From Martelella sp. AD-3 (GTDB taxonomy: Bacteria; Pseudomonadota; Alphaproteobacteria; Rhizobiales; Rhizobiaceae), in NCBI RefSeq assembly GCF_001578105.1, contig NZ_CP014275.1, forward strand, positions 3,286,001 to 3,350,000: DNA of 64,000 nt, written 5' to 3'. The notes beneath the pieces were generated by a model that was not told where the DNA came from, did no database searches, and saw nothing but the letters and a program-made list of their open reading frames with translations. Of the stretch, positions 7,207 through 63,386 are shown one piece after another. Each line of letters starts with the position of its first letter. Within the stretch, counting starts at the first letter, position 1. The translations under genes and the position numbers were made by a program.

Positions 7207-7224
7207 GCGGAGCCCGGGGGCCGG

Positions 7225-7977: not shown

Positions 7978-7997
7978 GATCGGTCTCCCGGTTGAAC

Positions 7998-8846: not shown

Positions 8847-8849
8847 TGA

Positions 8850-9707: not shown

Positions 9708-9851
9708 GATGGCCTTACGAAGATGATGCCGAGGTTTCCCGAAAGTCCTGTCTGGCGGTGTGCGAGGTTTGTTGGACGGCACGACGAAGTATTACACCCA
9801 CGATGCATGACGCCGACGCCAGCGCGTTCCGACCGCCCCTTCCACACGCCA

Positions 9852-9985: not shown

Positions 9986-10059
9986 CGGGAAAGCGAGGCA
10001 TACGCGCACCCGACCGTTTCCTGGTATTGTAAGCCGTCGGGCAGACGACCCCACAACTG

Positions 10060-11067
10060 TTACCGCCCCGCCTGGATCTGATCCAGCACGCCGCCGTCGC
10101 TGAAATGGGTTTCGTTGGCTTCACCCCAGCCGCCGAAGATCTCTTCGACCGTCACCAGCTTCACCTCCGGGAACTTGTCGGCATATTCGGCCTTCACTTC
10201 CGGATTGTGGACGCGGTTGTTGAAGGAGGCGACGATTTCCTGGCCTTCCTTGCTGTAAAGGAATTCGAGATAGGCCTTGGAAACGTCAACAGTACCGCGT
10301 TCTTCGGCGACCTTTTCGACCACGGCAACCGGGAACTCGGCCAGGAGCGAGATCGAGGGCACGACGCGCTGATATTCATCCTCGCCATATTGCGCACGGA
10401 TGTTTTCGACTTCGGCTTCGAATGTGATCAGCACGTCGCCGATGCCGCGCTCGACAAAGGTCGTCGTTGCGCCGCGGCCGCCGGTATCGAAGACGGCGAC
10501 ATTGCCCAGAACATCGCCAACGAATTCGCGCGCCTTGGCATCATCGCCATCAAACTTTTCGAGCGCATAGGCATAGGCCGCCAGATAGGTGTAGCGGGCA
10601 TTGCCGGAGGTCTTCGGATTGGGGAAGACGAGCTGAACATCCTCGCGGGCGAGATCGTCCCAATCCTTGATATCCTTCGGATTGCCCTCGCGCACGAGGA
10701 AGGCGGGCAGCGAATAGTAGGGCGATGCATTGTTGGGCAGGGCCTGCTGCCAGTCCTCGGCGACGAAGCCGTTGTCGGCAAGGATCTGAACGTCGAGCAC
10801 CTGGTTGAAGGTCACGAGATCGGCCTTCAGTCCCTGAAGGATGGCGCGGGCCTGCTTGGAGGAGCCCGCATGGGACTGCTTGATGGTGACGTCCTCACCG
10901 CTCTCGTTTTTCCAGTACTCGGCGAAAGCCGGATTGATCGTCGCGTAAAGCTCGCGCGCGATATCATAGGAAACGTTGAGGATTTCCATCTGTTCCTCGG
11001 CCTTTGCTGGCGCACCGGCGGTCAGGAGGAGAGCGGCGCCAAGCGCGGCAAAAACTGTCTTTTTCAT
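10060..11067 (-). CDS. sbp: Sulfate-binding protein Sbp/CysP
   Basis: A 335-residue periplasmic sulfate or thiosulfate binding protein. A signal peptide (MKKTVFAALGAALLLTAGAPAKA) precedes the mature start EEQMEILNVSYDIARELY. Family motifs SHAGSSKQARAILQGLKADLVTFNQV and NPKTSGNARYTYLAAYAYAL are intact and give the sulfate-binding loops. It is the first gene of the importer operon. No obvious Shine-Dalgarno sequence precedes the ATG (TTTCCCA is just upstream). The nearest flanking sugar locus carries a sulfatase, which would release the ion this system takes up. Confidence 0.93.
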   Translation of the reverse strand: MKKTVFAALGAALLLTAGAPAKAEEQMEILNVSYDIARELYATINPAFAEYWKNESGEDVTIKQSHAGSSKQARAILQGLKADLVTFNQVLDVQILADNGFVAEDWQQALPNNASPYYSLPAFLVREGNPKDIKDWDDLAREDVQLVFPNPKTSGNARYTYLAAYAYALEKFDGDDAKAREFVGDVLGNVAVFDTGGRGATTTFVERGIGDVLITFEAEVENIRAQYGEDEYQRVVPSISLLAEFPVAVVEKVAEERGTVDVSKAYLEFLYSKEGQEIVASFNNRVHNPEVKAEYADKFPEVKLVTVEEIFGGWGEANETHFSDGGVLDQIQAGR

Positions 11068-45965: not shown

Positions 45966-47513
45966 TTATGACGCCTGAGCGTAACTTGCCTCGATGATGG
46001 CGTTGCGGTTCATCTCGTCGCCGGAAAGCTCCCGCGTGATCAGGCCTTCGACCATCACGAGCACGCGGTCGCATAGATCGGGCAGTTCATCGGGCTCGGA
46101 AGAGATTACAAGCACCGCCATGCCTTCTGCGGCCAGATTGCGAATAAGCCGGTGAATTTCACCGCGCGCGCCGATATCGACGCCCCTTGTCGGTTCATCG
46201 AGAATGAGCACGTCCGGCCGACGCAAAAGCCAGCGGCCGATCACAACCTTCTGCTGATTGCCGCCCGAAAGCCGGCCCACCGGCGTATCGACGCCATCCG
46301 TCTTGATCGCGAGATCGCGGATGATTTCCTCGCTTTTCGTCCGGCGCTTGCGATAATCTATCAGCGGCAGAGCCGGAGATCGTATGATATTGGACAGATT
46401 GGCGATCTGCATGTTGAAGGCGAGGCTTTTGGTCAGGAGCAGGGCCTCGGAGCGGCGTTCCTCGGGCACGAAGCCCAGCCCCTTGTGAACCGCCTCGCTC
46501 GGCGAACGCGGGGCAAAGGGGATGCCGTTCAACTCCATCTTCCCGCCGTCAACCCGATCAGCACCGTAGATTAGGCGCGCAAGCTCGCTGCGCCCTGCCC
46601 CGACGAGACCGCCTATGCCCAGCACCTCGCCCTTCCTGAGGCTGAAATCCACTCCCCTGACCCTGGGCAGTCGCTTGAGACCGCTGATAGAAAGCGCGAC
46701 CGGACCGTCGATCGCGCGTCTGTCTTCGCGCGCCAGAGGTTCAACCGCGCCGCCGACAATCGCCTCCACAAGATTTTCCCTGGTCAGCGTCTCGCCTTCA
46801 AGGCAGGCGACCGACCGGCCATCGCGAAACGCCGTGACCCTTGAGCAGAGCCGCATGATTTCATCCAGCCGGTGCGACACGTAAAGCACCGCCACGCCGG
46901 AACGGGACAGATCCTCGATGATTGCGAACAGCCGCTCCGCCTCATTGGCCGAGAGCGATGCGGTCGGCTCGTCCATCACGATCAGGCGGGCCTTGCGCAC
47001 CAACGCCCGGCAGATGTTGACCAACCAGTTCTCCGCCGTCGACAGGGTTTTGACGTTGGCCGAAAGCGAAGCCTTGAGGCCAACGCGCGCGGCAATCGGC
47101 GCAATGTCCTTTTCGATCGCCGCCCAGTCGACCCAGCCGAAGCGGGTCTTCTTGGGCAGGCCCAGCATGATGTTCTCCATCACGGTCATGGAGGGAATGA
47201 AGGCAAGTTCCTGGTGAATGAAGTTCATTCCAAGATCGCTGGCCTGGTGCGGTGTCGCCACTTCGACTTCCCGCTCGTCGATCCTGATCCGACCGCCATC
47301 GGCGCGGGTCAGGCCGGCAAGAACCTTGATGACGGTGGACTTGCCGGCGCCATTCGCGCCGACGAGGCCGTGAACCTCGCCAGCGCGCAGCGTGAGCGAA
47401 ACGCCCTTGAGCGCTTGGACGCCGCCATATGACTTGACGACATTTTCAACTTCCAGAAAGACTGCATGTTCTTCTGAATTTTGTTTTGCGCTTGCCGCTT
47501 TGAAGTCAGTCAT
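45966..47513 (-). CDS. Ribose-type ABC transporter ATPase (RbsA-like, two domains)
   Basis: A 515-residue double ABC ATPase. The first domain has Walker A GANGAGKST, signature LSTAENWLVNICRAL (degenerate) and Walker B LIVMDEPTASLS; the second has a degenerate Walker A GLVGAGRSELARLIYG, a canonical signature LSGGNQQKVVIGRWL and DVLILDEPTRGVDIGARGEI. This asymmetry is normal for RbsA/XylG/MglA proteins. It follows the binding protein gene by 24 bases. Confidence 0.93.
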   Translation of the reverse strand: MTDFKAASAKQNSEEHAVFLEVENVVKSYGGVQALKGVSLTLRAGEVHGLVGANGAGKSTVIKVLAGLTRADGGRIRIDEREVEVATPHQASDLGMNFIHQELAFIPSMTVMENIMLGLPKKTRFGWVDWAAIEKDIAPIAARVGLKASLSANVKTLSTAENWLVNICRALVRKARLIVMDEPTASLSANEAERLFAIIEDLSRSGVAVLYVSHRLDEIMRLCSRVTAFRDGRSVACLEGETLTRENLVEAIVGGAVEPLAREDRRAIDGPVALSISGLKRLPRVRGVDFSLRKGEVLGIGGLVGAGRSELARLIYGADRVDGGKMELNGIPFAPRSPSEAVHKGLGFVPEERRSEALLLTKSLAFNMQIANLSNIIRSPALPLIDYRKRRTKSEEIIRDLAIKTDGVDTPVGRLSGGNQQKVVIGRWLLRRPDVLILDEPTRGVDIGARGEIHRLIRNLAAEGMAVLVISSEPDELPDLCDRVLVMVEGLITRELSGDEMNRNAIIEASYAQAS

Positions 47514-47537
47514 TTGAACGGCCCTGCCGGTCCTTCC

Positions 47538-48485
47538 TCAATTGCCGTAGGCGTCGGGATGCTCCTTCAGGAACGTCTCGATATTGTCCTGGGTAACCAG
47601 AATGGCCGGAACCTCGACCGCTTTCGGCTCCCAGGCATCGCCTTCATCAATGATCTTCTCGAGCAGCATCACCATATCATAGCCTTCGGTGTAGCTGTCC
47701 TCCCAAGCGGTGGCGGTCATATGGCCGCGACGGATATTCTCAAGCGCCTGGGCATTGCCGTTGACGCCATAGACTTCGACATCCGTGCGCCCTTGCTGGC
47801 GCAGCGGTCCGATCGCGCCGATGGCCGGATCGTCCCAGCAACCCCAGATCGCCAGGTTATCGCCCCCGGGCGGACGCGATGCGAGCCAGGCATTGGCATA
47901 TTGCGCTCCGTCTTCCAGATAGCCGGGAATACGAACTTCGTTCTTGGTTACCTTGATATCGGGATAGTCCTTCAGCTTCTCGTCAAGCAGGACTTCGCGA
48001 TTGCGGCAAACCTCGCCAGTGCGGTAGGTGAGTGCCAGAATCTCGCCCTTGCTGTTGAGATTCGCGATCATCTTGTCGATCACCGGCGCGGCGATCGGCG
48101 CGCCTGAACCATTGGTCGAGGCAACCGAGCGGCCAAGACCGCCGCCCCAGGTAACGACAGGGATTCCAGCGCTGTCGGCAGCGGCAAGACCTGCCCCGAT
48201 CGACGAATAGGGAAACACCATGTCGATGATCGCGACAGCGCCGCGGCCGGCGAAGTTCTGGATCGCGGAATTGGCCTGATCGGCGCTGCCCGCCGCATCG
48301 ACGACGTCCACATCCCATCCCAGTTCTTCGGCAGCCGCCTTGGCACCGTTGATGTAGCGAACATTGTTGGCCTCGTTCGCTGCGATCGAGACGATGCCGA
48401 GAAGCTTGGCGTCATCGGCCAGGCTCGGCGACGCCGCCGCCACAAACGCGCTTGTGACAAGCGCCGAGAAGATTGCGGTTTTCAT
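47538..48485 (-). CDS. Ribose-type ABC transporter binding protein
   Basis: A 315-residue periplasmic-binding protein of the Peripla_BP_4 class. Signal peptide MKTAIFSALVTSAFVAAASPSLA, then DDAKLLGIVSIAANEANNVRYINGAKAAAEELGW. Segments NFAGRGAVAIIDMVF and ENIRRGHMTATAWEDSYTEGYDM are typical of sugar-binding members. The ATG at 48485 follows GAGGAAAAC; longer frames run into the control region. It is the first gene of the operon and divergent from a LacI gene. The ligand is unknown; the hydrolase in the operon points to a lactone-containing or cyclised sugar derivative. Confidence 0.92.
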   Translation of the reverse strand: MKTAIFSALVTSAFVAAASPSLADDAKLLGIVSIAANEANNVRYINGAKAAAEELGWDVDVVDAAGSADQANSAIQNFAGRGAVAIIDMVFPYSSIGAGLAAADSAGIPVVTWGGGLGRSVASTNGSGAPIAAPVIDKMIANLNSKGEILALTYRTGEVCRNREVLLDEKLKDYPDIKVTKNEVRIPGYLEDGAQYANAWLASRPPGGDNLAIWGCWDDPAIGAIGPLRQQGRTDVEVYGVNGNAQALENIRRGHMTATAWEDSYTEGYDMVMLLEKIIDEGDAWEPKAVEVPAILVTQDNIETFLKEHPDAYGN

Positions 48486-48516
48486 GTTTTCCTCCCTTGG
48501 GTCTCCACCCTTCGCT

Positions 48517-48530
48517 CTGGCGAACGCCAG
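48517..48530. promoter_or_regulatory. Palindrome CTGGCG-AA-CGCCAG
   Basis: Perfect six-base arms with a two-base centre, 31 bases upstream of the binding-protein ATG. It is followed by AAACGTTT (48533-48540), a second small palindrome with the central CG typical of LacI-family operators. Candidate site for the adjacent LacI regulator. Confidence 0.5.
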
Positions 48531-48594
48531 AAAAACGTTTCGCCAGATAAGCCCAAAACACACTTTCGGGCAAGACTGTTTTGAAGAAAAACCT

Positions 48595-48609
48595 TTCGAA
48601 TATATCGAA
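48595..48609. promoter_or_regulatory. Palindrome TTCGAATATATCGAA
   Basis: Five-base arms TTCGA/TCGAA around ATATA, 55 bases upstream of the LacI start. Candidate regulator site in the divergent control region; AT-rich sequence around it probably holds the promoters. Confidence 0.45.
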
Positions 48610-48663
48610 CTTGCTCTATTTATCGATTTGATTTTATCAGCGAACCGTTTTGTGGAGGCCCAC

Positions 48664-49683
48664 TTGGCAAACATCAAGGACGTTGCAAAGGCTGCCGGCG
48701 TGTCACCGGCTACGGTATCCGCCGTCGTCAATGACACGGCCTATGTCAGTCCGCCTCTGCGTGCCCGCGTCCTCGAGGCCGTAGAGAGCCTCAACTACTC
48801 GCCGATGTCGGCGGCCCGCAATCTGAAGCGCGGCCGCAGCCAGCTAATCGCACTCGCGGTTGCCGATCTTCAGAACCCGTTCTTCTCCCGCATGGTCTGC
48901 GCCGCCGAGGCAGCTGTCAGCGCCTGGGGTTACAGTCTCGTCGTCTTCAACAGCGACGAAAAGCCGGAAAACGAGCGCACCATCCTCGGCCGAATTCGCT
49001 CGCTTTCCTGCGACGGCGTGATCCTCGTCCCGATCGGCGGCCCGGAGCGCTATCAGCAGTTCTGGCGCGACCCGGCCGCGCCGCCGCTCGTTCTCTTCGG
49101 CCGCGAGATCGGCGACAACCGGTTCGATGCCGTCACGCTCGACAATGTTCTGGCCGGGCGACGGGCGACGCGCTACCTGCTGGACCTCGGCCACCGCAGG
49201 ATCGGCTCGATCACCGGCCCCACCTTCTTGAGTACCGGCGCCGGGCGATTGCAGGGCCTCATGCAAGCCATGGAGGAGCGCGGCCTGAAACCGGATCCCC
49301 AACACGTGCGCTCCGGTGACTTCCGCGAGGAAATCGCCTACTCGGTTGCCATGGAAATATTACAGAGGCCCGACCGCCCGACAGCGCTTTATGTGGCCAA
49401 CGGCCTGATGGCGCTTGGCACGATGCGGGCAATCAACGACCTTGGGCTTCGCTGCCCGGAGGACATCTCCATCGCCTCCACCGACACATTGCCCGGCGTG
49501 GGCGGCCTGCGGCCCCGGCTCACCCGTACGGAACATCCGATGGGCGACATGATTGACCAGGCAGTCCGCTTTTTGATGGAGCGGATCGGCAACGAGAACA
49601 CGAAGATACAGGGGCGCCGGGTGACCTTCCCGCCCGAGCTTCTGCTCGGCGACAGTTGTGCGGGTCCGGACGCCGGCAAATGA
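48664..49683 (+). CDS. LacI-family transcriptional regulator
   Basis: A 339-residue LacI/GalR regulator beginning ANIKDVAKAAGVSPATVSAVVN, hinge YSPMSAARNLKRGRS, then the sensor domain LIALAVADLQNPFFSRMVCA. The start is a TTG at 48664: it stands five bases after GGAGG and immediately precedes the conserved helix-turn-helix, while no ATG is near. It is divergent from the ribose-type importer operon and should repress it. It ends 28 bases before the convergent GntR gene. Confidence 0.9.
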   Translation: MANIKDVAKAAGVSPATVSAVVNDTAYVSPPLRARVLEAVESLNYSPMSAARNLKRGRSQLIALAVADLQNPFFSRMVCAAEAAVSAWGYSLVVFNSDEKPENERTILGRIRSLSCDGVILVPIGGPERYQQFWRDPAAPPLVLFGREIGDNRFDAVTLDNVLAGRRATRYLLDLGHRRIGSITGPTFLSTGAGRLQGLMQAMEERGLKPDPQHVRSGDFREEIAYSVAMEILQRPDRPTALYVANGLMALGTMRAINDLGLRCPEDISIASTDTLPGVGGLRPRLTRTEHPMGDMIDQAVRFLMERIGNENTKIQGRRVTFPPELLLGDSCAGPDAGK

Positions 49684-49711: not shown

Positions 49712-50368
49712 CTAGCGCTGATCGATGGCCTGCCGCGTCACCGCCTCCAGCAGATCCAAGAGGTCGGAATTGTGCCTTGCGGCCATCTCCTGGTCGCCAT
49801 CGGCAATCGCCCGGAGTGTGTCCGCATGGCAGACCGCAGCCTTGGAAAAGGAGTGCGTGTCGGAAATGAAGGAAAACCAGAATCGGCGCGACAGATTGTG
49901 AATGACGTTGATCTGGCTTTGTAGAAACCGATTGTTAGCCGCCTCCGCCTCCAGCAGGTGGATCGCCTTGTTGATCGCCAGGTAGCGCGACCGATCAGCC
50001 TCGGCGATCGCGCTTTCCAGCCGGTCGGCGAGTGAGCGCATCTCTTCGCGCTGAGAATCGCTGGCACGCTTGCAGGCAAGGGTGACGACCAGGTTTTCCA
50101 GCGGACGCCGCGTCTCGAGGAGCTCGAGTTGCTTCGACACGTCGACGGCTGTCACCAGTATGCCGCGCCTCGGCAGTATCTCGACGAAACCCTCGAATTT
50201 CAGCCTTTGCAGCGCCTCGCGCACGGGCGTGCGCCCGCAATTCAGTTCGCGGGCGATCTCGCTTTCGGACAGAAGCTCGTGCGACTTGAGCGCCCCAGTG
50301 ACGATCTGATTTTGAATCGTGTCATAGGCGACATCTGTCATGGAACCGTTTATCGACGTTTTCTCCAC
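49712..50368 (-). CDS. GntR-family (FadR/FCD) transcriptional regulator
   Basis: A 218-residue GntR regulator. Winged helix at residues 12-72 (VAYDTIQNQIVTGALKSHELLSE, then ELNCGRTPVREALQRLKFEGFVEIL), followed by an all-helical FCD effector domain (ETRRPLENLVVTLACKRAS onward, with the metal-ligand-type His in ATRHNSDLLDLLEAV-like position, here AARHNSDLLDLL). It is divergent from the nine-gene catabolic operon, whose control region carries a 13-base palindrome. FCD-type regulators usually sense carboxylates, consistent with CoA-dependent catabolism of an organic acid. Confidence 0.92.
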   Translation of the reverse strand: MEKTSINGSMTDVAYDTIQNQIVTGALKSHELLSESEIARELNCGRTPVREALQRLKFEGFVEILPRRGILVTAVDVSKQLELLETRRPLENLVVTLACKRASDSQREEMRSLADRLESAIAEADRSRYLAINKAIHLLEAEAANNRFLQSQINVIHNLSRRFWFSFISDTHSFSKAAVCHADTLRAIADGDQEMAARHNSDLLDLLEAVTRQAIDQR

Positions 50369-50417
50369 TCTGGTCTCCTGTCTTGGAAGGCATTGCGAAT
50401 TTGAACGAACATAGCGG

Positions 50418-50446
50418 TTGACTTCGTTATCCGCAACAGATACTCA
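50418..50446 (+). promoter_or_regulatory. Candidate promoter of the catabolic operon
   Basis: -35 TTGACT (50418-50423), 17-base spacer, -10-like TACTCA (50441-50446). The -35 is five of six to consensus; the -10 is weak. It stands just before the palindrome at 50451, which would overlap the start of transcription. Confidence 0.4.
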
Positions 50447-50450
50447 TCAA

Positions 50451-50463
50451 ATCAACAGTTGAT
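50451..50463. promoter_or_regulatory. Candidate GntR operator
   Basis: ATCAAC-A-GTTGAT, a perfect 13-base palindrome 28 bases before the first gene of the operon and 83 from the divergent GntR ATG. Binding here would block a promoter placed just upstream. Confidence 0.55.
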
Positions 50464-50490
50464 ATATCAGACGGAAATGGAGGAGGAGCC

Positions 50491-51831
50491 ATGCCCGTTC
50501 CGATGGATACAAGAGACCGACAGAGACTTGACTGCGACCTGCTCGTGGTCGGCGGCGGCGCCGCCGGCGTGACGGCCGCCACGATTGCCGCGCGCAATGG
50601 TCTTTCGGTCATCATCGTCGAGCGCCATGGCTTTTGCGGCGGCGGCGCGGTGGCCGGCCATTCCGGCACGATCTGCGGCCTTTACGAGGCGAGCGACAAT
50701 GCCGAGAGCGGGCCAGTGCAGGCGGTGTTCGGGTTTGCCGGCGAATTCGTTTCACGCATGGAAGGCCGTGACGGCCTCGGCGCGCCGGTGCGCTACGGCA
50801 AAACCTTCACCCGCGTCCATGACCCGATCGTGTGGCGTGAGGTTTCGGACGACCTGCTTAGCGAGGCGGGCGTGACGGTCATCTATCACGCCGTGGCGAC
50901 CGAGGCCCTGATGGAGGGCGACCGGATCGAGGGCGCCCATGTCTGGACCAAGGAAGGCCCGCTCGACATCCGCGCAAAACGCACCATCGACGCCTCCGGC
51001 GATGCTGATCTCATCGCCATGGCGGGCCTTCCGAGCTTCATCGGCGACAATGGCCGCGTTCAGAACCCGACCATGATCTTCCGTCTGCAGGGCGTGGATG
51101 TGAATGCCTTCCGCGCCGCCTACGGCGAAGACACGATCATGCCGCCCGCAGTTTCGGAAATGATCGTCGCTGCAAACGGAGCCGGCGACTATACCCTGCC
51201 GCGCGCAAAGATCTGGCTGTTTGCGACCACGCGGCCCGGCGAGCTGCTGTGTAATTGCACCCGCATCGTCGGTGCCGATGGGCGCGAACTCAACCCGTTG
51301 TTCTGGCGTGATTTTTCAGAGGCAGAGATCGAAGGCCGCAGGCAGGCGCGCGAATATGCGCGCTTCTTCCACGATCACCTCGTCGGCTGCGAGACATCCT
51401 TCGTCAACGATATGGCCGTGCAGGTCGGCGTGCGCCAGACGCGCCAGGTTGAAGGCGTCACAAAACTCATGAATGCCGATGTGACCGGCGGCTCGAAATT
51501 TGCAGACGGTATTGCCCGCTCGCCTTGGCCGATCGAACTTCACGCAGGCGCGAAACCGAAAGTCGAATGGCTGCTGAACGATGTCTATGAAATTCCCTAC
51601 GGCTGTTTCGTGCCCCAGCGGGGCGAGAACCTTCTCGTCGCCGGGCGCTGCCTTTCGGCCGAGCACGAGGCGGTCGCCTCTGCCCGGGTGACGGCGCAGT
51701 GCTTCAGCTATGGCCACGCCATCGGCCACGCGGCAACAATCTCGGCACAGGAAGGCGTTGCACCCCGCGACCTTTCCGGAGCCGACATCCGCGCCATTCT
51801 CAACCGCGAAAACGCGCATCTGGACGGATAG
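50491..51831 (+). CDS. FAD-dependent oxidoreductase (FAD_oxidored family)
   Basis: A 446-residue flavoprotein. The ADP-binding Rossmann motif is LDCDLLVVGGGAAGVTAATI at about residues 12-31, followed by GLSVIIVERHGFCGGGAVAGHSG; a second conserved site is RTIDASGDADLIAMAGL, and the C-terminal FAD contact PYGCFVPQRGENLLVAGRCLSAEH is typical of the FAD-dependent family seen in bacterial carbohydrate and organic-acid catabolism. GGAGGAGGAGCC precedes the ATG. It is the first gene of the GntR-controlled operon and probably dehydrogenates or oxidises the substrate. Cys-Gly-Gly-Gly near the flavin could be redox active; this is speculation. Confidence 0.88.
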   Translation: MPVPMDTRDRQRLDCDLLVVGGGAAGVTAATIAARNGLSVIIVERHGFCGGGAVAGHSGTICGLYEASDNAESGPVQAVFGFAGEFVSRMEGRDGLGAPVRYGKTFTRVHDPIVWREVSDDLLSEAGVTVIYHAVATEALMEGDRIEGAHVWTKEGPLDIRAKRTIDASGDADLIAMAGLPSFIGDNGRVQNPTMIFRLQGVDVNAFRAAYGEDTIMPPAVSEMIVAANGAGDYTLPRAKIWLFATTRPGELLCNCTRIVGADGRELNPLFWRDFSEAEIEGRRQAREYARFFHDHLVGCETSFVNDMAVQVGVRQTRQVEGVTKLMNADVTGGSKFADGIARSPWPIELHAGAKPKVEWLLNDVYEIPYGCFVPQRGENLLVAGRCLSAEHEAVASARVTAQCFSYGHAIGHAATISAQEGVAPRDLSGADIRAILNRENAHLDG

Positions 51832-51834
51832 GGC

Positions 51835-52584
51835 ATGAGCGAGGAAATCACTGTCGAAAAACGCGAAGGCTTTGCCATTCTCACCATGAGCCGCCCTGCG
51901 CGCCGCAACGCGCTCGGCGCGACAAGCATGGCCACGCTGTTTGAAAACCTGAAGACTCTTGCCGCCGAACCCGAATGTGCCGCCGTGGTGCTCACCGGCG
52001 CGCCGCCGGCCTTCTGCGCAGGATCGGACCTGAAAGAACTTGGCGGATTGTCCGTTGCGGACATGTGCGAACACGAGGCCGAGACAGCGCGGATCGCGCG
52101 CGCGATCGGGCACCTGCCGATCCCGGTGATCGCGGCGGTGGAAGGTTACGCGCTCGGCGGCGGCTTCATTCTGGCCGCCTCATGCGACATCGTCGTCTCG
52201 GCGGCAGGCGCGAAATGGAACATGCCGGAAGTGCGCAATGGCTGGCTGCCGCCATGGGGGCTGCAGGCGCTTCTTGCCCGCACGAGCGCCGCCAATGCCC
52301 GCCTCATCACCTGGGGCATTATGGAAATCGACGGGAACGAGGCCAGACGACTTGGCATCGCCGATACGGTCGCCCCCGACGGCGCCGCGCTTGAGGCCGC
52401 CTGCACGCTGGCCGGCCGGCTGGCGGCTCTGCCTGCCAATGCCGTCGCCTCGGCAAAGCGGTTCTTCGAAATCGCGGCGGCCGCCGATGCAGAACGCATG
52501 GATGCAGAAGCAGGCAGGCTCTTCGCGCAGGACTGCGAAAGCGCGGCGGCGAAAGCCGTCCTCTCCAGCTTTACGGTGAAATGA
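51835..52584 (+). CDS. Enoyl-CoA hydratase/isomerase family protein
   Basis: A 249-residue crotonase-superfamily protein. The oxyanion-hole segments are APPAFCAGSDLKELGGL (about 58-74) and VEGYALGGGFILAASCD (about 101-117). A glutamate is kept in WNMPEVRNGWLPPWG, where one of the two catalytic acids of hydratases usually sits; the second is not obvious. It acts on a CoA thioester, so the CoA-transferase of the next gene would supply its substrate. It starts three bases after the flavoprotein stop and ends two bases before the transferase. Confidence 0.9.
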   Translation: MSEEITVEKREGFAILTMSRPARRNALGATSMATLFENLKTLAAEPECAAVVLTGAPPAFCAGSDLKELGGLSVADMCEHEAETARIARAIGHLPIPVIAAVEGYALGGGFILAASCDIVVSAAGAKWNMPEVRNGWLPPWGLQALLARTSAANARLITWGIMEIDGNEARRLGIADTVAPDGAALEAACTLAGRLAALPANAVASAKRFFEIAAAADAERMDAEAGRLFAQDCESAAAKAVLSSFTVK

Positions 52585-52585
52585 C

Positions 52586-54181
52586 ATGCAGAAGATCGTA
52601 ACGGCCGAGGAGGCCGTCGCCAATATCAAGCACGGAGCAACCGTCGCAAGCGCGGGCGTCATCGGATGGGTCACACCCGATGCCATCCTGAAGGCGCTCG
52701 GCGCGCGATTTGAGAAGACCGGCTCGCCGGGCGACCTCACCTTCTATTTTCCCTGCGGCACAGGCGACGCCATGGGCATCAAGGGCATGGACCATGTCGC
52801 CCGCGAAGGGCTGATGAAGCGCATCGTCTCGGGCAGCTATATCAACCCCGTCGACCCCGCGACCGGCAAACGCCCAGAACTGATGCGGCTTATCCGCGAA
52901 AACAGGATCGAGGCCTATAGCTGGCCGATCGGCGCCACCATGCACTGGCTGCGCGAGGTTGCGCGCAAGTCGCCCGGCTACATCACCCGCGTCGGTCTCG
53001 GCACCTATGCCGATCCGAGACTGGGCGGCGGCAAGTTTACCGAAAAGGCCAGGGACGACCTGATCCGGGTCATCGAGATCGATGGCGAGGAACTGCTCTA
53101 CTATCCCACCTGGCCGGTCGATGTCGCGATCCTGAGAGCCGCCAGCGCCGACAAATACGGCAATCTGAGTTGGGAAGACGAGCCGCTGACGACCGCCAAT
53201 ATCGCGCTGGCGCTTGCGGCGAAAGCGAGCGGCGGCAAGGTGATCGTCCAGGTGCGGCGCATCGTCGAGACCAATAGCCGGCCGGCAACGGCCAACCGCC
53301 TGCCCGGCATCTTCGTCGACCAGATCGTGGTTGACGAAGACATGATGATGACCACAGATGTGGCTTATGAGCCGGCCTATTTCGGTGGCCAGCGCCGCGA
53401 CCTCTTAACCCTTGAGCCGCCGCCCTTTTCCGCCGACAGGATCATCGCCAACCGCATTGCAGCCGAGGTTCGTCGCGATGAGCTTGCGATCTACGGTTTT
53501 GGCGCGGCAACCGACGTGCCTCTGGTGATGGCCGAACAGGGGCTCTTCGCCGGCGAGGCGATCCACGACTATCCAGCAACGACAGAACACGGTGCCTATG
53601 GCGGCATCGTCATGCCGGGCTGGCAGTTCTCTGCCAACATCAACCCGGACGCGCTCCTTGACGGGCCGACCCAGTTCGATGTCATCGATGGCGGGCTGTG
53701 CGCATTCACCGCGCTCTCCTTCGCCGAATACGACAGCGACGGCGTGGTCAACGTCTCGAAATTCGGCAAGGCCAATCCCGGCGCCGGCGGCTTCATCGAT
53801 ATCGCCCAGAATGCGCAAAGGCTGATTTTCGCCGGCACCTTCACCACCGGCGGACTGAAGGCCGATGTCCGCGAGGGAAAGCTTGAAATCCTGCAGGAGG
53901 GCAAGGTGCGTAAATTCGTCAACGCGGCGGCGTCCGTCACCTATCGGGTCGAGGAGGGTGTACGGAAACGCGGCCAGGAGGCCCTGATCGTGACCGAGCG
54001 TGCCGTCTTCCGCTGCGCCGGGGATGGGCTTGAACTGATCGAGATCGCCCCAGGCATCGACCTGCATAGCCAGGTGCTCGACCTGATGGATTTCGCGCCG
54101 GTCAGGATCAGCGATCCCCTGCCGCTTATGGACGAAAAGCACTTCGCCCGAACGCTGAATGAGGAGCGTGCAGACGCATGA
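52586..54181 (+). CDS. Class I CoA-transferase (YdiF/acetate CoA-transferase type)
   Basis: A 531-residue fused alpha-beta family I CoA-transferase, the length of YdiF. It transfers CoA between carboxylic acids through a glutamyl-CoA thioester. The catalytic glutamate is Glu334 in TTEHGAYGGIV, the family pattern E-x-G-x2-G-G. The alpha half starts KIVTAEEAVANIKHGATVAS. It overlaps the next gene by four bases (ATGA). It should activate the pathway's acid intermediate before the crotonase step. Confidence 0.92.
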   Translation: MQKIVTAEEAVANIKHGATVASAGVIGWVTPDAILKALGARFEKTGSPGDLTFYFPCGTGDAMGIKGMDHVAREGLMKRIVSGSYINPVDPATGKRPELMRLIRENRIEAYSWPIGATMHWLREVARKSPGYITRVGLGTYADPRLGGGKFTEKARDDLIRVIEIDGEELLYYPTWPVDVAILRAASADKYGNLSWEDEPLTTANIALALAAKASGGKVIVQVRRIVETNSRPATANRLPGIFVDQIVVDEDMMMTTDVAYEPAYFGGQRRDLLTLEPPPFSADRIIANRIAAEVRRDELAIYGFGAATDVPLVMAEQGLFAGEAIHDYPATTEHGAYGGIVMPGWQFSANINPDALLDGPTQFDVIDGGLCAFTALSFAEYDSDGVVNVSKFGKANPGAGGFIDIAQNAQRLIFAGTFTTGGLKADVREGKLEILQEGKVRKFVNAAASVTYRVEEGVRKRGQEALIVTERAVFRCAGDGLELIEIAPGIDLHSQVLDLMDFAPVRISDPLPLMDEKHFARTLNEERADA

Positions 54182-55269
54182 AGTTCACCGATATCCCGGA
54201 AGGGTCTCGTGCCCTCCTAAGAAAGGGCACCGTCCTGCCTGCCCACCCGCTTCTGCTCACCGCAGAACGCAAGCTGGACGAGGCGCGCCAGCGCGCGGTC
54301 ACCCGCTATTACGTCGATGCCGGCGCCGGCGGCATGGCGGTCGGCGTCCACACCACGCAATTTGCCATTCGCGAAGTCGGACTTTACGAACCGGTTCTGC
54401 GTCTTGCTGCGGAAACGGCCTACGCCTGGACTGACCGGCCGCTTCTGATGGTTGCCGGCGTAACCGGTAACACGGAGCAGGCGCTGAACGAGACGCGGAT
54501 TGCACGCGGGCTCGGATATCACGCGGTTCTCCTGAACCTTGCCCGACTGAAGGGCCAGTCGGAAATCGAGATCCTCAAGCATTGCCGCGCGATCGCCGCT
54601 GAAATGCCGGTAATCGGTTTCGCCCTTCTGCCCGAGGTCGGCGGATTTCATCTCTCCTACGATTTCTGGCGCGCCTTTGCCGGTCTCGACAATGTCGTAG
54701 CGATCAAGATGGCGCCGTTTGATCGCTATCGCACCATCGAGATCATCCGCGGGGTCTGCGACGCCGGCTCTCAGGATCGCATCACGCTTTATACCGGCAA
54801 TGACGATCACATCATCCTCGACCTCGTCCAGCCCTTCGTCGTGCGATCGGCCGACGGCAAAAGCGAGCACCGGCTGCGCATTCGCGGCGGCCTTCTGGGA
54901 CATTGGAGCGTTTGGGCCGAAAAAGCCGTGCAGCAGTTCGAGCGCATCCACGCCATAGCCGACGGCGCGGCGATCCCCGAGGATATCCTGGCGCTCGACA
55001 GCATGGTGACCGACTGCAACCTCGCCATTTACGACGCGCTGAACAACCTGGCCGGATGCATTCCGGGCTGCCTTGAAGTGCTGCGCCGCCAGGGACTGGC
55101 CGCCGGAACCTGGTGCCTTGACGAGAACGAGGTCCTGAGCCCCGGCCAGAGCGAACAGATCGACCGGGTCTATGCGATGTATCCCGAAATGAACGACGAC
55201 CTCTTTGTGAAGAAGAATTTGACGCGCTGGCTGAGCGGCAACGCCGCCGCCAATCCGCTTCTGCGATGA
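54178..55269 (+). CDS. Divergent DapA-superfamily protein
   Basis: A 363-residue protein, longer than typical DapA (about 295), of the dihydrodipicolinate synthase superfamily. The Schiff-base lysine seems kept (Lys177 in NVVAIKMAPFDRYR), but the GTTGE loop is replaced (GGMAVGVHTTQF, 51-62) and the catalytic tyrosine motif LYN-P is replaced by GFALLPEVGG (147-156). An insertion with GGLLGHWSVWAEKA follows at about 240. Thus an aldolase or other imine chemistry on an unusual substrate, or loss of catalysis, is possible. It overlaps the CoA-transferase stop (ATGA) and lies 23 bases before the next start. Confidence 0.8.
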   Translation: MKFTDIPEGSRALLRKGTVLPAHPLLLTAERKLDEARQRAVTRYYVDAGAGGMAVGVHTTQFAIREVGLYEPVLRLAAETAYAWTDRPLLMVAGVTGNTEQALNETRIARGLGYHAVLLNLARLKGQSEIEILKHCRAIAAEMPVIGFALLPEVGGFHLSYDFWRAFAGLDNVVAIKMAPFDRYRTIEIIRGVCDAGSQDRITLYTGNDDHIILDLVQPFVVRSADGKSEHRLRIRGGLLGHWSVWAEKAVQQFERIHAIADGAAIPEDILALDSMVTDCNLAIYDALNNLAGCIPGCLEVLRRQGLAAGTWCLDENEVLSPGQSEQIDRVYAMYPEMNDDLFVKKNLTRWLSGNAAANPLLR

Positions 55270-55292
55270 AACAGGTTTGGGAGGAAACCGAA

Positions 55293-56348
55293 ATGAACAA
55301 AACGATTGAGACCCTTCATCCCGGCATGTTTCCGGACACATTTCGTGACGTCGAGCATCTCGAGGATTTCATGTCGGTGCCCACGTCCGAGGTGGTCGAG
55401 GACCTGAACGCGCTCGACGGCGACATCATGATCCTCGGTGTCGGCGGCAAGATCGGCGTCACCATGGCCCGCATGGCCAAGAGGGCCTGCCCCGACAAGC
55501 GGGTCATCGGCGTATCGCGCTTTTCCGAAAAAGGCGTCGAGGAGCGTCTCAACGCCTGGGGCATCGAGACAATTGCCTGCGACCTGCTTGACCGGGAGGC
55601 GGTCAATGCCCTGCCGAAAGTCGCCAATGTCATCTACATGGCCGGTCTCAAATTCGACTATCGCGGTCGCGAGGATTTTCTCTGGGCGATGAACACGATC
55701 GCACCGCAGATCACGGCGGAGGCCTTTCGCGACAGCCGGCTGGTGACCTTTTCGACGATCCATGTCTACCCCTGGTCGAACCCGCTTCATGGCGGCGTGA
55801 CGGAGAAAGACCTCCCCATGGCCCGGCCCGGCGAATACGCCAATTCGGTTGTCGGACGGGAGCGCACCTTCGAGCATTTCTCCAAGAAATACGACACGCC
55901 CGGTCGCGCCATGCGCTTCGTCTACGCCATCGACACGCGTTACGGCGTGATGCAGGAAATCGCCAGCTGGGTCTTTGCCGGCAAGGAGGTCCCGCTCGAT
56001 ACCGGCCATGTCAACATCATGTGGCAGGGCGATGCCAACGCCCAGTTCCTGCGCATGCTCGGCCAGTGCACAGTGCCGGCGAGCCCGATCAATGTCGGTG
56101 GACCGGAGACCATGTCGGTTCGCTATCTCGCCAATCGTTTCGGCGAAGCCTTCGGCGTCGAACCGCGCTTTACCGGCGCCGAGCAGGACAATTGCCTGCT
56201 CGTGAACTGCGACAAGGCAAACGGGATCTTTGGTAATCCGGTCGTGTCGGTCGATCCGATGGTGCGCTGGGTGGCCGACTGGGTGAAGACCGGAAAGCCC
56301 GTCCATGGCAAGCCGTCGAAATTTCAAGTCCGCTCCGGTGAGTTTTGA
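55293..56348 (+). CDS. NAD-dependent epimerase/dehydratase-like protein
   Basis: A 351-residue extended SDR-type protein. The nucleotide motif is DIMILGVGGKIGVTMARMAKR (about residues 45-65), with VANVIYMAGLKFDYRG and TFSTIHVYPWSN as the following conserved stretches. The catalytic Tyr-x3-Lys is not clearly in its usual form (PGEYANSVVGRERTFEH has Tyr but Arg in place of Lys). The ATG at 55293 follows GGGAGGAAACCGA, much better than one 27 bases upstream. It probably oxidises or epimerises a sugar-like intermediate. Confidence 0.8.
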   Translation: MNKTIETLHPGMFPDTFRDVEHLEDFMSVPTSEVVEDLNALDGDIMILGVGGKIGVTMARMAKRACPDKRVIGVSRFSEKGVEERLNAWGIETIACDLLDREAVNALPKVANVIYMAGLKFDYRGREDFLWAMNTIAPQITAEAFRDSRLVTFSTIHVYPWSNPLHGGVTEKDLPMARPGEYANSVVGRERTFEHFSKKYDTPGRAMRFVYAIDTRYGVMQEIASWVFAGKEVPLDTGHVNIMWQGDANAQFLRMLGQCTVPASPINVGGPETMSVRYLANRFGEAFGVEPRFTGAEQDNCLLVNCDKANGIFGNPVVSVDPMVRWVADWVKTGKPVHGKPSKFQVRSGEF

Positions 56349-56357
56349 GCCAACGCC

Positions 56358-57110
56358 ATGACCCTACGCCACTATTCCTACGCCATCGCTTCCCATATCG
56401 GCTTCATCCTGCTGTGGCAGGCGGTCGTCGTGCTCGCCGATGTGCCGACCTATATTCTTCCGACGCCGCTACAGACCATCGCCGAACTTTCGGAGGGATC
56501 CTATAACTGGGGCATGCAGATCTGGGTGACCACCCTCGAGATCTTCGGCGGCTATGCGCTGGCGGTTGTCGTCGGCGTGGCGCTGTCGGTCCTGTTCGTG
56601 TGGATCCCGGCTCTCAACAATTCGCTGATGCCCCTGCTCGTCACGCTCAACATGGTGCCGAAGGTGGCGATGGCGCCGCTGTTCATCATCTGGTTCAGCT
56701 ACGGCATCGTCCCCAACATGATCATCGCCTTCACGATCTGCTTCTTCCCGATCGTGCTGACGACCTATCGCGGACTGATCGAGGTCGAACCGGACCTTAT
56801 CAATCTAGTCAAAGCGCTGAAGGCGAGCCGCTGGCAGATCTTCGTCAAGATCCAGCTTCCAGGTTCCCTGCCCTACCTGTTTTCCGGCATGAAGGTTGCT
56901 GCCATTCTGGCGGTTGCCGGGGCCGTTGTCGGCGAGTTCATCGCCTCCGACAAGGGGCTCGGCAATTTCCTGCTGATCCAGCAGAACGCGCTGAACACGC
57001 CCGCGATGATGATGGCCCTGCTGCTGATCACGGCGATCGGCATGACGCTCTACGGTTTCGTGCTGGTGCTTGAATACATCTTCATCACGCGCAAGGAGAT
57101 TGCGGCATGA
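56358..57110 (+). CDS. ABC transporter permease (NMT1/TauC class)
   Basis: A 250-residue permease of the nitrate/taurine/pyrimidine-precursor class. The start is MTLRHYSYAIASHIGFILLW; the EAA loop is VEPDLINLVKALKASRWQIFVKIQLPGSLPYLFSG; the helix AGAVVGEFIASDKGLGNFLLIQQN is typical. It overlaps the ATPase gene by four bases. Confidence 0.92.
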   Translation: MTLRHYSYAIASHIGFILLWQAVVVLADVPTYILPTPLQTIAELSEGSYNWGMQIWVTTLEIFGGYALAVVVGVALSVLFVWIPALNNSLMPLLVTLNMVPKVAMAPLFIIWFSYGIVPNMIIAFTICFFPIVLTTYRGLIEVEPDLINLVKALKASRWQIFVKIQLPGSLPYLFSGMKVAAILAVAGAVVGEFIASDKGLGNFLLIQQNALNTPAMMMALLLITAIGMTLYGFVLVLEYIFITRKEIAA

Positions 57111-57883
57111 GCCGGACGGACCAGAAACCTTTTATCAAGCTTGATGGCGTCAAGAAGGTGTTCAATGTCGGCGGCAGCGAATTCCTTGCTGTGCAGGACG
57201 TTTCGCTCGAAATCCGGGAGGGCGAGCTCGTCTCGATCGTCGGGCCATCCGGTTGCGGCAAGTCGACGGTCCTGTCGATCCTTTCCGATCTCAACAAGGC
57301 CACCGAAGGCACGATCGAGATCGGCAATGAACACTCGCCGTTCACCCCCGGCCGGGATGTCGGCATGGTGTTCCAGAAGGCGCTGCTCTTGAAGTGGCGC
57401 ACCATTCTCGACAATGTCCTGCTGCCGGCCGAGATCCTTGGCCTGCCTCAAAAGGAAAGCCGCGAACGCGCCGCCGACCTTCTGGACATGGTCGGCCTTG
57501 CGAAATTCGCCGACGCCTACCCGCAGCAACTTTCCGGGGGCATGCAGCAACGCGCCTCGATTGCTCGCGCCCTGGTTCACGATCCGCGCCTTATCCTGAT
57601 GGACGAGCCCTTCGGCGCACTCGACGCCCTCACGCGCGAGCGCATGAACCTCGAACTGCTGCGCATCTGGAAGGAGAGCCGCAAGACAATACTGTTTGTC
57701 ACCCACGGCATTCAGGAAGCGGTGTTCCTCGGCTCGCAGGTCGCCGTCATGACTGCAGGCCCTGCCCGCATGGCTGCTCATTTCGATATCGAACTGCCGG
57801 AGCCCCGAACGCTCGACGTCAAGACGACCGAGAAATTCGGCGCCTATACCCGTGAAATCTATCATCTGCTCGGACTGAACTGA
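57107..57883 (+). CDS. ABC transporter ATPase (TauB/SsuB class)
   Basis: A 258-residue ATPase. Walker A is GPSGCGKST, signature LSGGMQQRASIARALVHDPRL, Walker B LILMDEPFGALDALTRE and switch TILFVTHGIQEAVFLG. It pairs with the preceding permease and the following binding protein. Confidence 0.93.
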   Translation: MSRTDQKPFIKLDGVKKVFNVGGSEFLAVQDVSLEIREGELVSIVGPSGCGKSTVLSILSDLNKATEGTIEIGNEHSPFTPGRDVGMVFQKALLLKWRTILDNVLLPAEILGLPQKESRERAADLLDMVGLAKFADAYPQQLSGGMQQRASIARALVHDPRLILMDEPFGALDALTRERMNLELLRIWKESRKTILFVTHGIQEAVFLGSQVAVMTAGPARMAAHFDIELPEPRTLDVKTTEKFGAYTREIYHLLGLN

Positions 57884-57906
57884 AACTGGTTTTAAGGGAG
57901 GAAACC

Positions 57907-58893
57907 ATGCGAAAGTACATGACATTTGTGATGACAACCGCGCTTTGCGCAGCCGGCGCCAGCACCGTTTCTGCCGCGGACCTGAGCCTGCAACTGAACT
58001 GGAAGGCCGGCGGCGATCACGCCCCGATCTATTATGCGCTTGAACAGGGCTGGTATGAGGATGCCGGCGTCGATCTCGATGTACGCCAGGGCTCCGGCTC
58101 GGGCGCTTCCGCCAAGGCGCTGGCCGTTGGCCAGGTCGATCTTGCCATCATCGATACGCCGACCGCGCTCCAGTTCATAGGCAATGACACGCCGATCAAG
58201 GGCGTGTTCGTCGCCTATAATGACAGCCCCTATGGCATCTACTGGAAGAAAAGCTCCGGCATTGAAACCGTGGCCGACCTCAAGGGCCGCAAGATCGGGG
58301 CGCCCGCCTTCGACGCGGCCCGGCAGATGTGGATCCCGATCGCTAACGCGCTCGACCTCGATCCCGATTCCGTCGAGTGGGTGAACCTGCAGCCGACGGC
58401 CAAGGTCGCAGCGCTCCAGTCGGGCGCGATCGATGCAACGACCCATTTCTATTCGGTGCACTTCATCTATGAGGACGTGCTTGGCGATGATCTGGGCTAT
58501 GCACTTCTGCGTGACGAGGGACTGAACCCTTACGGGCTCGCCTATTTCGCCAGCGACGATTCAATTGCAGAAAAGCATGATGCCATCGAAACCATGGTGC
58601 ATGTCACCCAGCGCGCCTTCGCCGTCTGCCTTAAAGACCCCGCCCCATGCGCCAAGGCGCTGTCGGAAGCCGTCAGCATGAAGGAGAGCGACGCCGCCCG
58701 CGAACTCGAATATGCCTCACGCGTCATGCCTGGCCTCGACAATCCGCTGGCGATCGGCGAATGGGACGTTGAACGCGTCGTCGCCGACTATGATCTCGTC
58801 GAAGCATCCTTCGAGATCACGCCGTTTGACCCCAAGACCGCTGTCACCAATGAGTTCATCGACACGTCGATCAAATATCCGGCGGCGAAATAG
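57907..58893 (+). CDS. ABC transporter substrate-binding protein (NMT1/THI5 class)
   Basis: A 328-residue periplasmic protein of the NMT1/SsuA class. Signal peptide MRKYMTFVMTTALCAAGASTVSA; mature start ADLSLQLNWKAGGDHAPIYYALEQGWYEDAG, the family hallmark, then QGSGSGASAKALAVGQVDLAIIDTPTA. Related proteins bind pyrimidine or riboflavin precursors, sulfonates or aromatic acids. It is the last gene of the operon. The ligand is not readable, but the operon content argues for a carboxylate-bearing compound. Confidence 0.92.
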   Translation: MRKYMTFVMTTALCAAGASTVSAADLSLQLNWKAGGDHAPIYYALEQGWYEDAGVDLDVRQGSGSGASAKALAVGQVDLAIIDTPTALQFIGNDTPIKGVFVAYNDSPYGIYWKKSSGIETVADLKGRKIGAPAFDAARQMWIPIANALDLDPDSVEWVNLQPTAKVAALQSGAIDATTHFYSVHFIYEDVLGDDLGYALLRDEGLNPYGLAYFASDDSIAEKHDAIETMVHVTQRAFAVCLKDPAPCAKALSEAVSMKESDAARELEYASRVMPGLDNPLAIGEWDVERVVADYDLVEASFEITPFDPKTAVTNEFIDTSIKYPAAK

Positions 58894-59537: not shown

Positions 59538-59614
<77 letters not shown>

Positions 59615-59760
59615 TTATTTCTGAGCTTCCGGGGAATGGTTGCAGACGGTTGGTCTTGCGCTTTGCCCGGAATTTTGTTTGTCGGTGCTTGGAAGTTTTG
59701 CTTCCTGCGGGCCGGAGGGCTACTCGAGCCCGCGTTGTTTCGTGTTTGTTGCGGCAATGC

Positions 59761-59784
59761 AAAAAGCCGCTTTGGGGGCGGCTT
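59761..59784 (-). terminator. Intrinsic terminator after the 5S gene
   Basis: On the minus strand AAGCCGC-CCCCAAA-GCGGCTT followed by TTT. It lies 48 bases after the 5S gene and 147 before tRNA-fMet, so the tRNA needs read-through or its own promoter. The remaining 59615-59831 shows nothing else. Confidence 0.75.
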
Positions 59785-59831
59785 GAGATCGGCAGTCGCC
59801 GTTATGAGAAGATATTGAGCTGCATTTGGCA

Positions 59832-59950
59832 GACCTGGCAGCGACTTACTCTCCCGTGCCTTAAGACAAAGTACCATCAGCGCTGGGGCATTTCACGGCC
59901 GTGTTCGGAATGGGAACGGGTGTTAAGGACCCCGCCATAGCCACCAGGTC
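59832..59950 (-). rRNA. rrf: 5S ribosomal RNA
   Basis: About 119 nt on the minus strand, starting GACCTGGTGGCTATGGCGGG and containing the conserved CCCGTTCCCATTCCGAACACGG region and the pairing end CCAGGTC. The terminal helix GACCTGG/CCAGGTC sets the ends. Confidence 0.95.
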
Positions 59951-60308
59951 GGCCAAATGCAGCATGTTTTCGAGAAGCTGGAGTTTGTTCTGTCCTCACG
60001 CTGACGCGGCTTGCGCCGCTTCGCTCCGGACGGGGCGGCGCATCAGCGCCGGCGGCCGGTCGGCCTTGCGAAGCCTGTCGGCTTCGACCTTCCCCTGCGA
60101 TGCAGAAGAAAGGATACAAGGTCGTGAGGTCTGTTGTTGTATTGGCGCTTCGCCAGTCAGCAGTCGCAATGACTGCCGGGGGACGACCCTCAGCAGCTTG
60201 CCTGCGTCGCGAAGCGGCCCGTCCGGAGCGCAGCGGCCAAAGGCCGCGACAGCGTCAGGACAAAAAGATCATGTCTTCGGCGAAGCCGATGAACATGAAC
60301 AATGAGAA
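59951..60308 (-). other. 23S-5S spacer with a long imperfect stem
   Basis: 358 bases without a gene. An imperfect long stem pairs 59992-60034 (GTCCTCACGCTGACGCGG, then CGCTCCGGACGGG) with 60218-60261 (CCCGTCCGGAGCG, then CCGCGACAGCGTCAGGAC). It is probably an RNase III-type processing or spacer-folding structure. Part of it, at 60018-60038, is identical to a stretch of the 23S intervening sequence (62995-63015). Confidence 0.65.

Positions 60309-63386
<3,078 letters not shown>

Follow-up and report, generated by a model that had tools for sequence, protein, structure and literature searches.

A conserved SDR-like and DapA-like gene pair in a GntR-associated operon of Martelella sp. AD-3, and its candidate role in the catabolism of a polyhydroxylated carboxylic acid

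Introduction

Which substrate, and which order of reactions, would bring together in one operon a flavoprotein, a crotonase, a coenzyme A (CoA)-transferase, a relative of dihydrodipicolinate synthase (DHDPS; the DapA-like protein), a relative of the short-chain dehydrogenases/reductases (SDR; the SDR-like protein) and a solute importer? This question is raised by nine open reading frames (ORFs) at 49712-58893 of a 64,000-nucleotide stretch of the Martelella sp. AD-3 genome (5.04 Mb in three contigs), taken from contig NZ_CP014275.1, positions 3,286,001 to 3,350,000. The whole stretch is called the window below, and coordinates refer to it. An earlier note, made from the sequence alone, had described these genes as a GntR-controlled functional unit that matches no recognised pathway. 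Comparison across genomes demonstrated that the unit is more than a chance assembly, the gene order fad-ech-coaT-dapA-sdr being conserved across distant taxa. That the operon is a self-contained, locally regulated catabolic unit for a polyhydroxylated carboxylic acid (sugar-acid-, cyclitol-acid- or dehydrated-sugar-like) comes close to an even call. The features of the unit are as follows.

49712..50368, minus strand: gntR, FCD-subfamily GntR repressor-like regulator (PF07729 FCD, 76.7 bits, cut-off 24.3; PF00392 GntR, 58.2 bits, cut-off 27)
50459..50470, no strand: operator-like palindrome TTGATATATCAG between gntR and fad, pattern YTGAYATRTCAR
50491..51831, plus strand: fad, flavin adenine dinucleotide (FAD)-dependent oxidoreductase (PF12831, 399 bits, full model covered)
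51835..52584, plus strand: ech, crotonase-family protein lacking the first catalytic Glu (GGGFILA), the second present (PEV) (PF00378, 137.7 bits)
52586..54181, plus strand: coaT, one-chain class I CoA-transferase, FadX/YdiF-like (PF01144, 84.5 bits, cut-off 23)
54178..55269, plus strand: dapA-like, DHDPS-fold Schiff-base-type protein with an altered pocket (Pfam match and fold)
55266..56348, plus strand: sdr-like, extended-SDR-fold nucleotide-binding protein lacking the YxxxK lysine (PF01370, 30.3 bits, cut-off 20.9)
56358..57110, plus strand: permease of an ATP-binding cassette (ABC) importer (PF00528, 92.9 bits)
57107..57883, plus strand: ATPase of the ABC importer (PF00005, 116.1 bits)
57907..58893, plus strand: NMT1/SsuA-type periplasmic binding protein, with an N-terminal signal-like sequence as judged by eye (PF09084, 129.1 bits)

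All nine ORFs are intact and lie where the earlier note had placed them, and Pfam backs each assignment. The junctions of the eight-gene run measure +3, +1, -4, -4, +9, -4 and +23 bases in order, and gntR is divergent from fad with 122 bases between them. With intact genes, tight junctions (-4 to +23) and families as named, the unit described earlier is real; its six enzymes are actually five, together with a three-gene NMT1/SsuA-type ABC importer that is complete, with binding protein, permease and ATPase all above their Pfam cut-offs. The start of the sdr-like gene is probably 55293 rather than 55266, because the alignment of homologues begins at Met10. The transcription unit very likely ends at 58893, because tRNA-Met, 5S and 23S rRNA genes lie downstream on the minus strand (59541-63386); the ORFs listed within that region are spurious. 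Among the NCBIfam matches listed for the nine proteins, no family scored above its own cut-off, and the SDR-like protein had no match whatever.

Conservation of the gene set

The extent to which these genes travel together was assessed in 26 loci, 24 of them on genome contigs (an alignment scan with the SDR-like protein, 60-98% identity) and two in plasmid records whose SDR-like protein is at least 60% identical. As the loci were gathered by SDR alignment, the counts tell what the SDR-like gene implies, not what the FAD enzyme implies. The DapA-like gene adjoins the SDR-like gene in all 26. The FAD enzyme and the crotonase are near in 25, the exception being L020, which starts 1.3 kb upstream of sdr so that the FAD region is cut off, and a CoA-transferase is found in all 26 (class I in 14, partial in L020; class III in 12). 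The co-occurrence of the enzymes, which the earlier note had proposed to check, is thereby borne out. The importer, which that note had counted in the set, was rejected as part of the invariant unit: the three window-type importer genes occur in only 10 of the 26 loci, all Alphaproteobacteria, and the other loci checked had MFS or CUT1-type carriers nearby.

The 26 loci span Alphaproteobacteria, Colwellia, a verrucomicrobial metagenome-assembled genome (MAG) and actinobacteria, and the order fad-ech-coaT-dapA-sdr is common to Martelella radicis, Rhodobacterales, Colwellia and the verrucomicrobial MAG. The 12 loci with a class III CoA-transferase are actinobacterial; 11 of them have a LacI-type cluster, and CUT1 importers and Gfo/Idh dehydrogenases occur in several. 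Here fad is separate from dapA-sdr, in several loci after ech and in others on the opposite strand or upstream. Co-occurrence across phyla persists despite the exchanged CoA-transferase class and regulators, which argues for the catabolic unit proposed above.

The closest named relative of the unit among the genome contigs is M. radicis, whose SDR-like protein is 98% identical; a same-genus genome (G010) also reaches 98%. Genes outside the unit served as a control. A LacI regulator gene and, divergent from it, those of a sugar ABC ATPase and its binding protein (45966-49683) match at 97% in M. radicis (L019) only, so that their linkage to the unit is confined to that species; in L020-L044 they gave matches of 26-34% or none. 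The relatives listed for the pair itself include at least 120 DapA-like proteins at 64-95% identity and at least 120 SDR-like proteins at 62-97%.

The SDR-like and DapA-like pair

The copies that belong to the unit form one branch in the SDR tree (27 rows: the window, 24 genome loci including L020, and two plasmids; Shimodaira-Hasegawa-like approximate likelihood ratio test, SH-aLRT, 100) and one branch in the DapA tree (27 rows, SH-aLRT 99), both trees being built by a quick method with no bootstrap and with several long branches among the sister rows.

The extended-SDR fold of the SDR-like protein is indicated by PF01370 and by fold comparison, with a predicted model whose mean predicted local distance difference test score (pLDDT) is just 75.5, and its Rossmann glycines (G58, G61 and G64) are present in 47 of 47 rows. 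YxxxK is the catalytic motif of short-chain dehydrogenases/reductases. Its tyrosine (Tyr191) is present in all 47 rows, and the lysine position holds Val in 27, Cys in 20 and Lys in none. Because this lysine is absent, the protein is named SDR-like only, and ordinary SDR chemistry at the step that the earlier note gave it is doubtful. A sequence search of solved structures returned no relative of the protein; a profile search gave TerB at 5e-06.

The DapA-like protein matches the profile of the DHDPS/N-acetylneuraminate lyase (NAL) superfamily and has the (beta/alpha)8 DHDPS fold. Its K177 aligns with the IK lysine of 1xky, the Schiff-base lysine, and is kept in 45 of 45 rows. Pyruvate-dependent aldolases of the DHDPS/NAL/HOGA type have a GTTGE carboxylate loop, catalytic tyrosines and an Arg after NVP. 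Here HTTQF replaces the TTGE loop, and the positions aligned to YYN and LYNVPGR of 1xky hold no Tyr or Arg, in a remote alignment in which single positions could shift.

More distant SDR-like genes (41-53% identity), whose fetched stretch shows no FAD gene, make up 20 sister-clade rows, 18 of them with a DapA-like gene (L045 and L060 have the same SDR sequence). In seven of these loci (L046, L049, L050, L051, L053, L054 and L061), which carry the SDR/DapA pair, identity to the importer of the window is 54-63% for the permease and 64-71% for the ATPase. These seven loci, with the same importer type and an SDR-like and a DapA-like gene, would constitute a second uncharacterised system. Because the importer stands beside the pair in them, it appears to go with SDR/DapA rather than with the FAD enzyme, and this linkage suggests that the pair acts first and the FAD/CoA arm second. 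The earlier note had proposed the opposite order, in which the imported acid is first converted by the FAD enzyme, the DapA-like and SDR-like proteins then cleave the product and CoA activation follows. In the window, as in those class I loci that show this end, fad directly follows the divergent gntR, which would suit such an order; however, gene order is not reaction order, the actinobacterial fad lies apart from dapA-sdr, and FAD homologues that lack SDR/DapA adjoin other dehydratases and carriers. The flavoprotein-first order found no support, the importer linkage points the opposite way, and this alternative is considered unlikely.

Two neighbouring genes were observed beside the pair. 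In L046 and L049 an annotated GNAT gene lies between sdr and dapA. In the verrucomicrobial MAG, the gene immediately after sdr (L032:11093-12253) encodes a protein with the catalytic domain of cobalamin-independent methionine synthase, and a methyl-group step is possible there.

The oxidation and CoA arm

The FAD tree has two deep lineages, on which the label 'with SDR/DapA' requires six changes, four or more of them by starred branches (careful method). These lineages track the CoA-transferase class and the crotonase type: class I goes with a crotonase from which the first glutamate has been lost, class III with one that has two glutamates. Two glutamates are catalytic in enoyl-CoA hydratase. 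The protein of the window belongs to the crotonase superfamily by its PF00378 match and by a GGG motif present in 30 of 30 aligned rows. The class I loci, the window included, have Ile or Ala instead of the first glutamate and keep the second; in the 12 class III loci both are present (the same 30 rows, with a separate alignment to EchA8). Hydration by the crotonase, as suggested earlier, is therefore doubtful for the window lineage. The CoA-transferase has the TTEHG motif in 16 of 16 rows, YdiF (2ahu) as its best PDB match (E 1.6e-96) and the general CoA_trans domain PF01144; against the NCBIfam FadX equivalog it scores 306.7 bits, below the curated cut-off of 750. A sequence search of solved structures gave distant relatives only for the FAD enzyme. 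Because such relatives are absent or distant, no function can be transferred to the SDR-like and FAD proteins.

Because the SDR and DapA copies of the unit form one branch each while the FAD enzyme splits in two, we infer a single SDR/DapA pathway whose oxidation/CoA arm was supplied on two occasions; one origin with later replacements would also account for the trees. The FAD enzyme was tried as a marker of the pathway and rejected: of seven genomes with this enzyme at 48% identity or more, among 385 of the class, the window's genome alone has an SDR-like gene at 60% or more.

The same search bears on whether the unit consists of two unrelated short pathways simply housed together. Such an arrangement would explain why each block also occurs apart from the other, in the six FAD-positive class genomes lacking an SDR-like gene at that threshold (three of them just 74-84% complete) and in the 20 sister-clade rows, 18 with DapA, that have no FAD gene in the fetched stretch. 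Against it, the FAD block is present at 25 of 25 evaluable unit-type SDR loci, with two different sets of FAD enzyme, CoA-transferase and crotonase, and the SDR and DapA copies of the unit each form one branch. Two separate pathways are very improbable on these grounds.

Other FAD homologues stand in varied company. The gene lies beside a crotonase, a CoA-transferase and a branched-chain-type ABC importer in Methylobacterium nodulans, a 441-base IlvD piece and an MFS carrier in Rhizobium leguminosarum, IlvD and a TRAP carrier in Indioceanicola, and MR/MLE and a BCCT carrier in Vibrio; in Rhodococcus koreensis it is accompanied by a CoA-transferase, a crotonase, LacI and MFS, with IlvD further on. 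In a 1.3 Mb genome (L062:2501-10197, a stretch of 29% guanine plus cytosine), a FAD enzyme at 64% and a GntR gene stand beside a TRAP carrier, a PhyH dioxygenase and a gene of the ketopantoate hydroxymethyltransferase family.

The enolase-superfamily partner and sugar-type neighbours

Clustering of neighbouring genes brought out a protein, some 475 residues long, that is encoded in nine loci of actinobacteria and four of Alphaproteobacteria, the two groups being homologous (34%). The clusters include antisense ORFs (wrong strand calls) and were used only if they matched known genes or Pfam or were compared further. This protein carries the pattern KxK, DxNE, E, DES, K of the enolase superfamily and is homologous to a 'mandelate racemase' beside sdr in Nitratireductor. 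Pfam MR_MLE_C matched weakly in three of eight copies; the copy of the window genome scored above the cut-off (42.1 versus 29.4 bits). The gene is present in 17 of the 24 genomes holding the unit. Among the 385 class genomes it occurs in 29 and an SDR-like gene of either clade, nearly always the sister clade, in 34; both are shared by 23 genomes versus 2.6 expected (hypergeometric 2e-23, a figure that ignores kinship), and in 16 of these 23 they lie at most 20 kb apart. The enolase-superfamily protein is a frequent partner of the SDR/DapA pair, unlinked to it in the window genome. There, the gene is at C1:3567400, and its cluster (L078, C1:3558000-3577900, 2036-10741) also encodes Gfo/Idh, DUF993, a xylose-isomerase-like barrel, parts of a tripartite tricarboxylate carrier and TetR; by its context, DUF993 may be a stand-in for the DapA/SDR pair.

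Other neighbours are of sugar type as well. Gfo/Idh dehydrogenases, CUT1 importers and LacI regulators are found in actinobacterial unit loci, xylose-isomerase-like barrels and tripartite tricarboxylate carriers in sister-clade loci, and IlvD or MR/MLE beside FAD homologues without SDR/DapA. The Pfam counts behind these neighbours come from 72 and 75 hand-picked ORFs (best 25 of 66 and 25 of 69 families) and are illustrative, not frequencies. Because the enolase-type partner, Gfo/Idh, CUT1, the tripartite carriers, LacI, IlvD and MR/MLE all point to it, a polyhydroxylated carboxylic acid is the preferred substrate. A DUF6807 protein (L036:14497-15447), encoded downstream of the unit, adjoins a CUT1 importer and Gfo/Idh; by BLAST clustering, eight actinobacterial loci appear to have homologues, confirmed by Pfam in two picked ORFs.

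A different substrate, an alicyclic or aromatic-derived acid, would imply another scheme, in which the transferase makes the CoA thioester first, the FAD enzyme acts as a desaturase, the crotonase opens or isomerises the ring and the DapA-like and SDR-like proteins cut the side chain. A class I CoA-transferase, a crotonase and a flavoprotein are typical of the degradation of acids as CoA thioesters, and importers of the NMT1 type are not restricted to sugars. In G392 and G469 (L063, L065), a crotonase and an AMP-binding ligase with a PF14535 C-domain are found close to FAD homologues. Among solved SDR-fold structures the nearest is TerB, whose structure title names polyporic acid as the co-crystallised compound. 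Polyporic acid is a benzoquinone. This scheme has to contend with the sugar- and polyol-type partners across loci (Gfo/Idh, CUT1, LacI, xylose-isomerase-like, MR/MLE and IlvD), and by Pfam none of the nine proteins is an oxygenase, an acyl-CoA dehydrogenase or a thiolase. An alicyclic or aromatic-derived substrate is considered unlikely.

Regulator and control region

Both a GntR helix-turn-helix domain and an FCD domain are present in the regulator, which places it in the FCD subfamily. A gntR homologue adjoins fad in 12 of the 26 loci, each with a class I CoA-transferase. The palindrome TTGATATATCAG at 50459-50470 is the single match to YTGAYATRTCAR in the 5.04 Mb genome, a reversed control pattern giving zero matches; within the window there is one site versus 0.04 expected. 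From 19 candidate loci, L065 and L070 were left out and 17 gntR-fad spacers of the window and its relatives were analysed. The pattern is found in 13 of them, a count that, like the shuffle figure, is not independent, YTGAYATRTCAR having been read off the very spacers counted, so that the genome-wide search is the better test. By group, it is present in 12 of 13 spacers from the window and unit-carrying relatives, and in one of four from FAD loci without SDR/DapA (Vibrio, L071). The spacers without it are L064, L068, L069 and that of the nearest relative, M. radicis (L019), which has a degenerate copy. Because the palindrome was found only once in the genome, it fits a putative operator of a single-target local regulator. 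The earlier proposal of a GntR-controlled functional unit gains from this divergent gntR and from a predicted operator that matches nowhere else in the genome.

A proposed pathway

In the pathway proposed for a polyhydroxylated acid, the NMT1-type importer would bring the acid into the cell, where the SDR-like protein, carrying nicotinamide adenine dinucleotide (NAD), and the DapA-like Schiff-base barrel would act first, as a pair. Their reaction may be an epimerisation, dehydration, decarboxylation or retro-aldol type conversion of a keto or hydroxy acid, helped in many genomes by the divergent enolase-superfamily protein. The FAD enzyme would next oxidise the product of the pair, and the class I CoA-transferase and the crotonase would convert the resulting acid to a CoA thioester that enters central metabolism. 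Binding of the substrate or an intermediate would relieve repression of the operon by GntR. Each chemical step is inferential.

A broader reading, given tentatively and held somewhat less firmly than the substrate class, is that these loci represent an undescribed multi-phylum pathway built on an obligate pair, a lysine-less SDR fold and a DapA barrel without a pyruvate pocket, often with a mostly Pfam-invisible enolase partner. The reaction of the pair would be new to both superfamilies, and the flavoprotein/CoA/crotonase arm would have been attached twice independently.

Several observations weigh against the pathway proposed for a polyhydroxylated acid. Its substrate and product are predictions from gene content, and the order of steps derives from linkage only. 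The unit is patchy: an SDR-like gene at 60% identity or more is found in two of 101 relatives (the window genome and G010) and in one of the 385 class genomes, the window's own. Seven of the 24 unit genomes have no match to the enolase-type gene, its class-wide association is mostly with sister-clade SDRs, and the one copy of the window genome lies 226 kb from the operon in a different cluster and may not serve it. Most sugar-type neighbours stand in actinobacterial or sister-clade loci, not in alphaproteobacterial units, and to our knowledge a CoA-transferase and a crotonase are unusual in known sugar-acid routes.

If the proposal is true, many annotations as 'dihydrodipicolinate synthase family' and 'NAD-dependent epimerase' would denote one metabolic pair. 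With its conserved set, importer and lone operator-like site, the unit would lend itself to finding the substrate by ordinary binding and growth screens, and the swap from a class I to a class III CoA-transferase, together with the flavoprotein and crotonase lineage, would be a natural experiment on which steps are indispensable.

Comparison with known systems

Among the matches listed, the open-access literature held no characterised pathway with exactly this gene set, in agreement with the earlier view that the pathway is not a recognised one, and the gene set is not described in the passages drawn on from three papers (PMC6336799, PMC11775122, PMC10971088). The SDR-like protein is about 21% identical to TerB (6d2v, 6nd7), an SDR-fold reductase of terfestatin biosynthesis, and many sugar-nucleotide epimerases and dehydratases lie within one Z unit of TerB; because of this low identity and these equally close structures, no function is drawn from the likeness. 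The CoA-transferase is like FadX and YdiF by its 306.7 bits to the former and its best PDB match to the latter, 2ahu; unlike them, it falls below the FadX cut-off of 750 and is set among DapA-like and SDR-like proteins and a crotonase with one catalytic Glu.

A parallel also exists with the non-phosphorylative acid-sugar pathways (pentonate routes I-III). For these routes, the passages cite enolase-superfamily acid-sugar dehydratases (PMC6336799). They share with the operon a Schiff-base enzyme of the DHDPS/NAL superfamily, a dehydrogenase of the SDR superfamily and a hydroxy acid, and an enolase-superfamily protein is linked to SDR/DapA in the relatives studied here. In contrast, the term 'CoA' is absent from the main text of that source, and its passages contain no CoA-transferase, crotonase or PF12831 flavoprotein. 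The operon differs in turn by a DapA-like protein without the pyruvate pocket, an SDR-like protein without the catalytic Lys and, by Pfam, no acid-sugar dehydratase among its nine genes, the enolase-superfamily gene lying 226 kb away. The gud/gar pathway with the 5-KDG aldolase GudL differs in its GudD/GarD and GarR, and the passages concerned contain neither a FAD enzyme nor a CoA-transferase or crotonase (PMC11775122); like the operon, it has a DapA-like protein for an oxidised sugar acid and an ABC importer.

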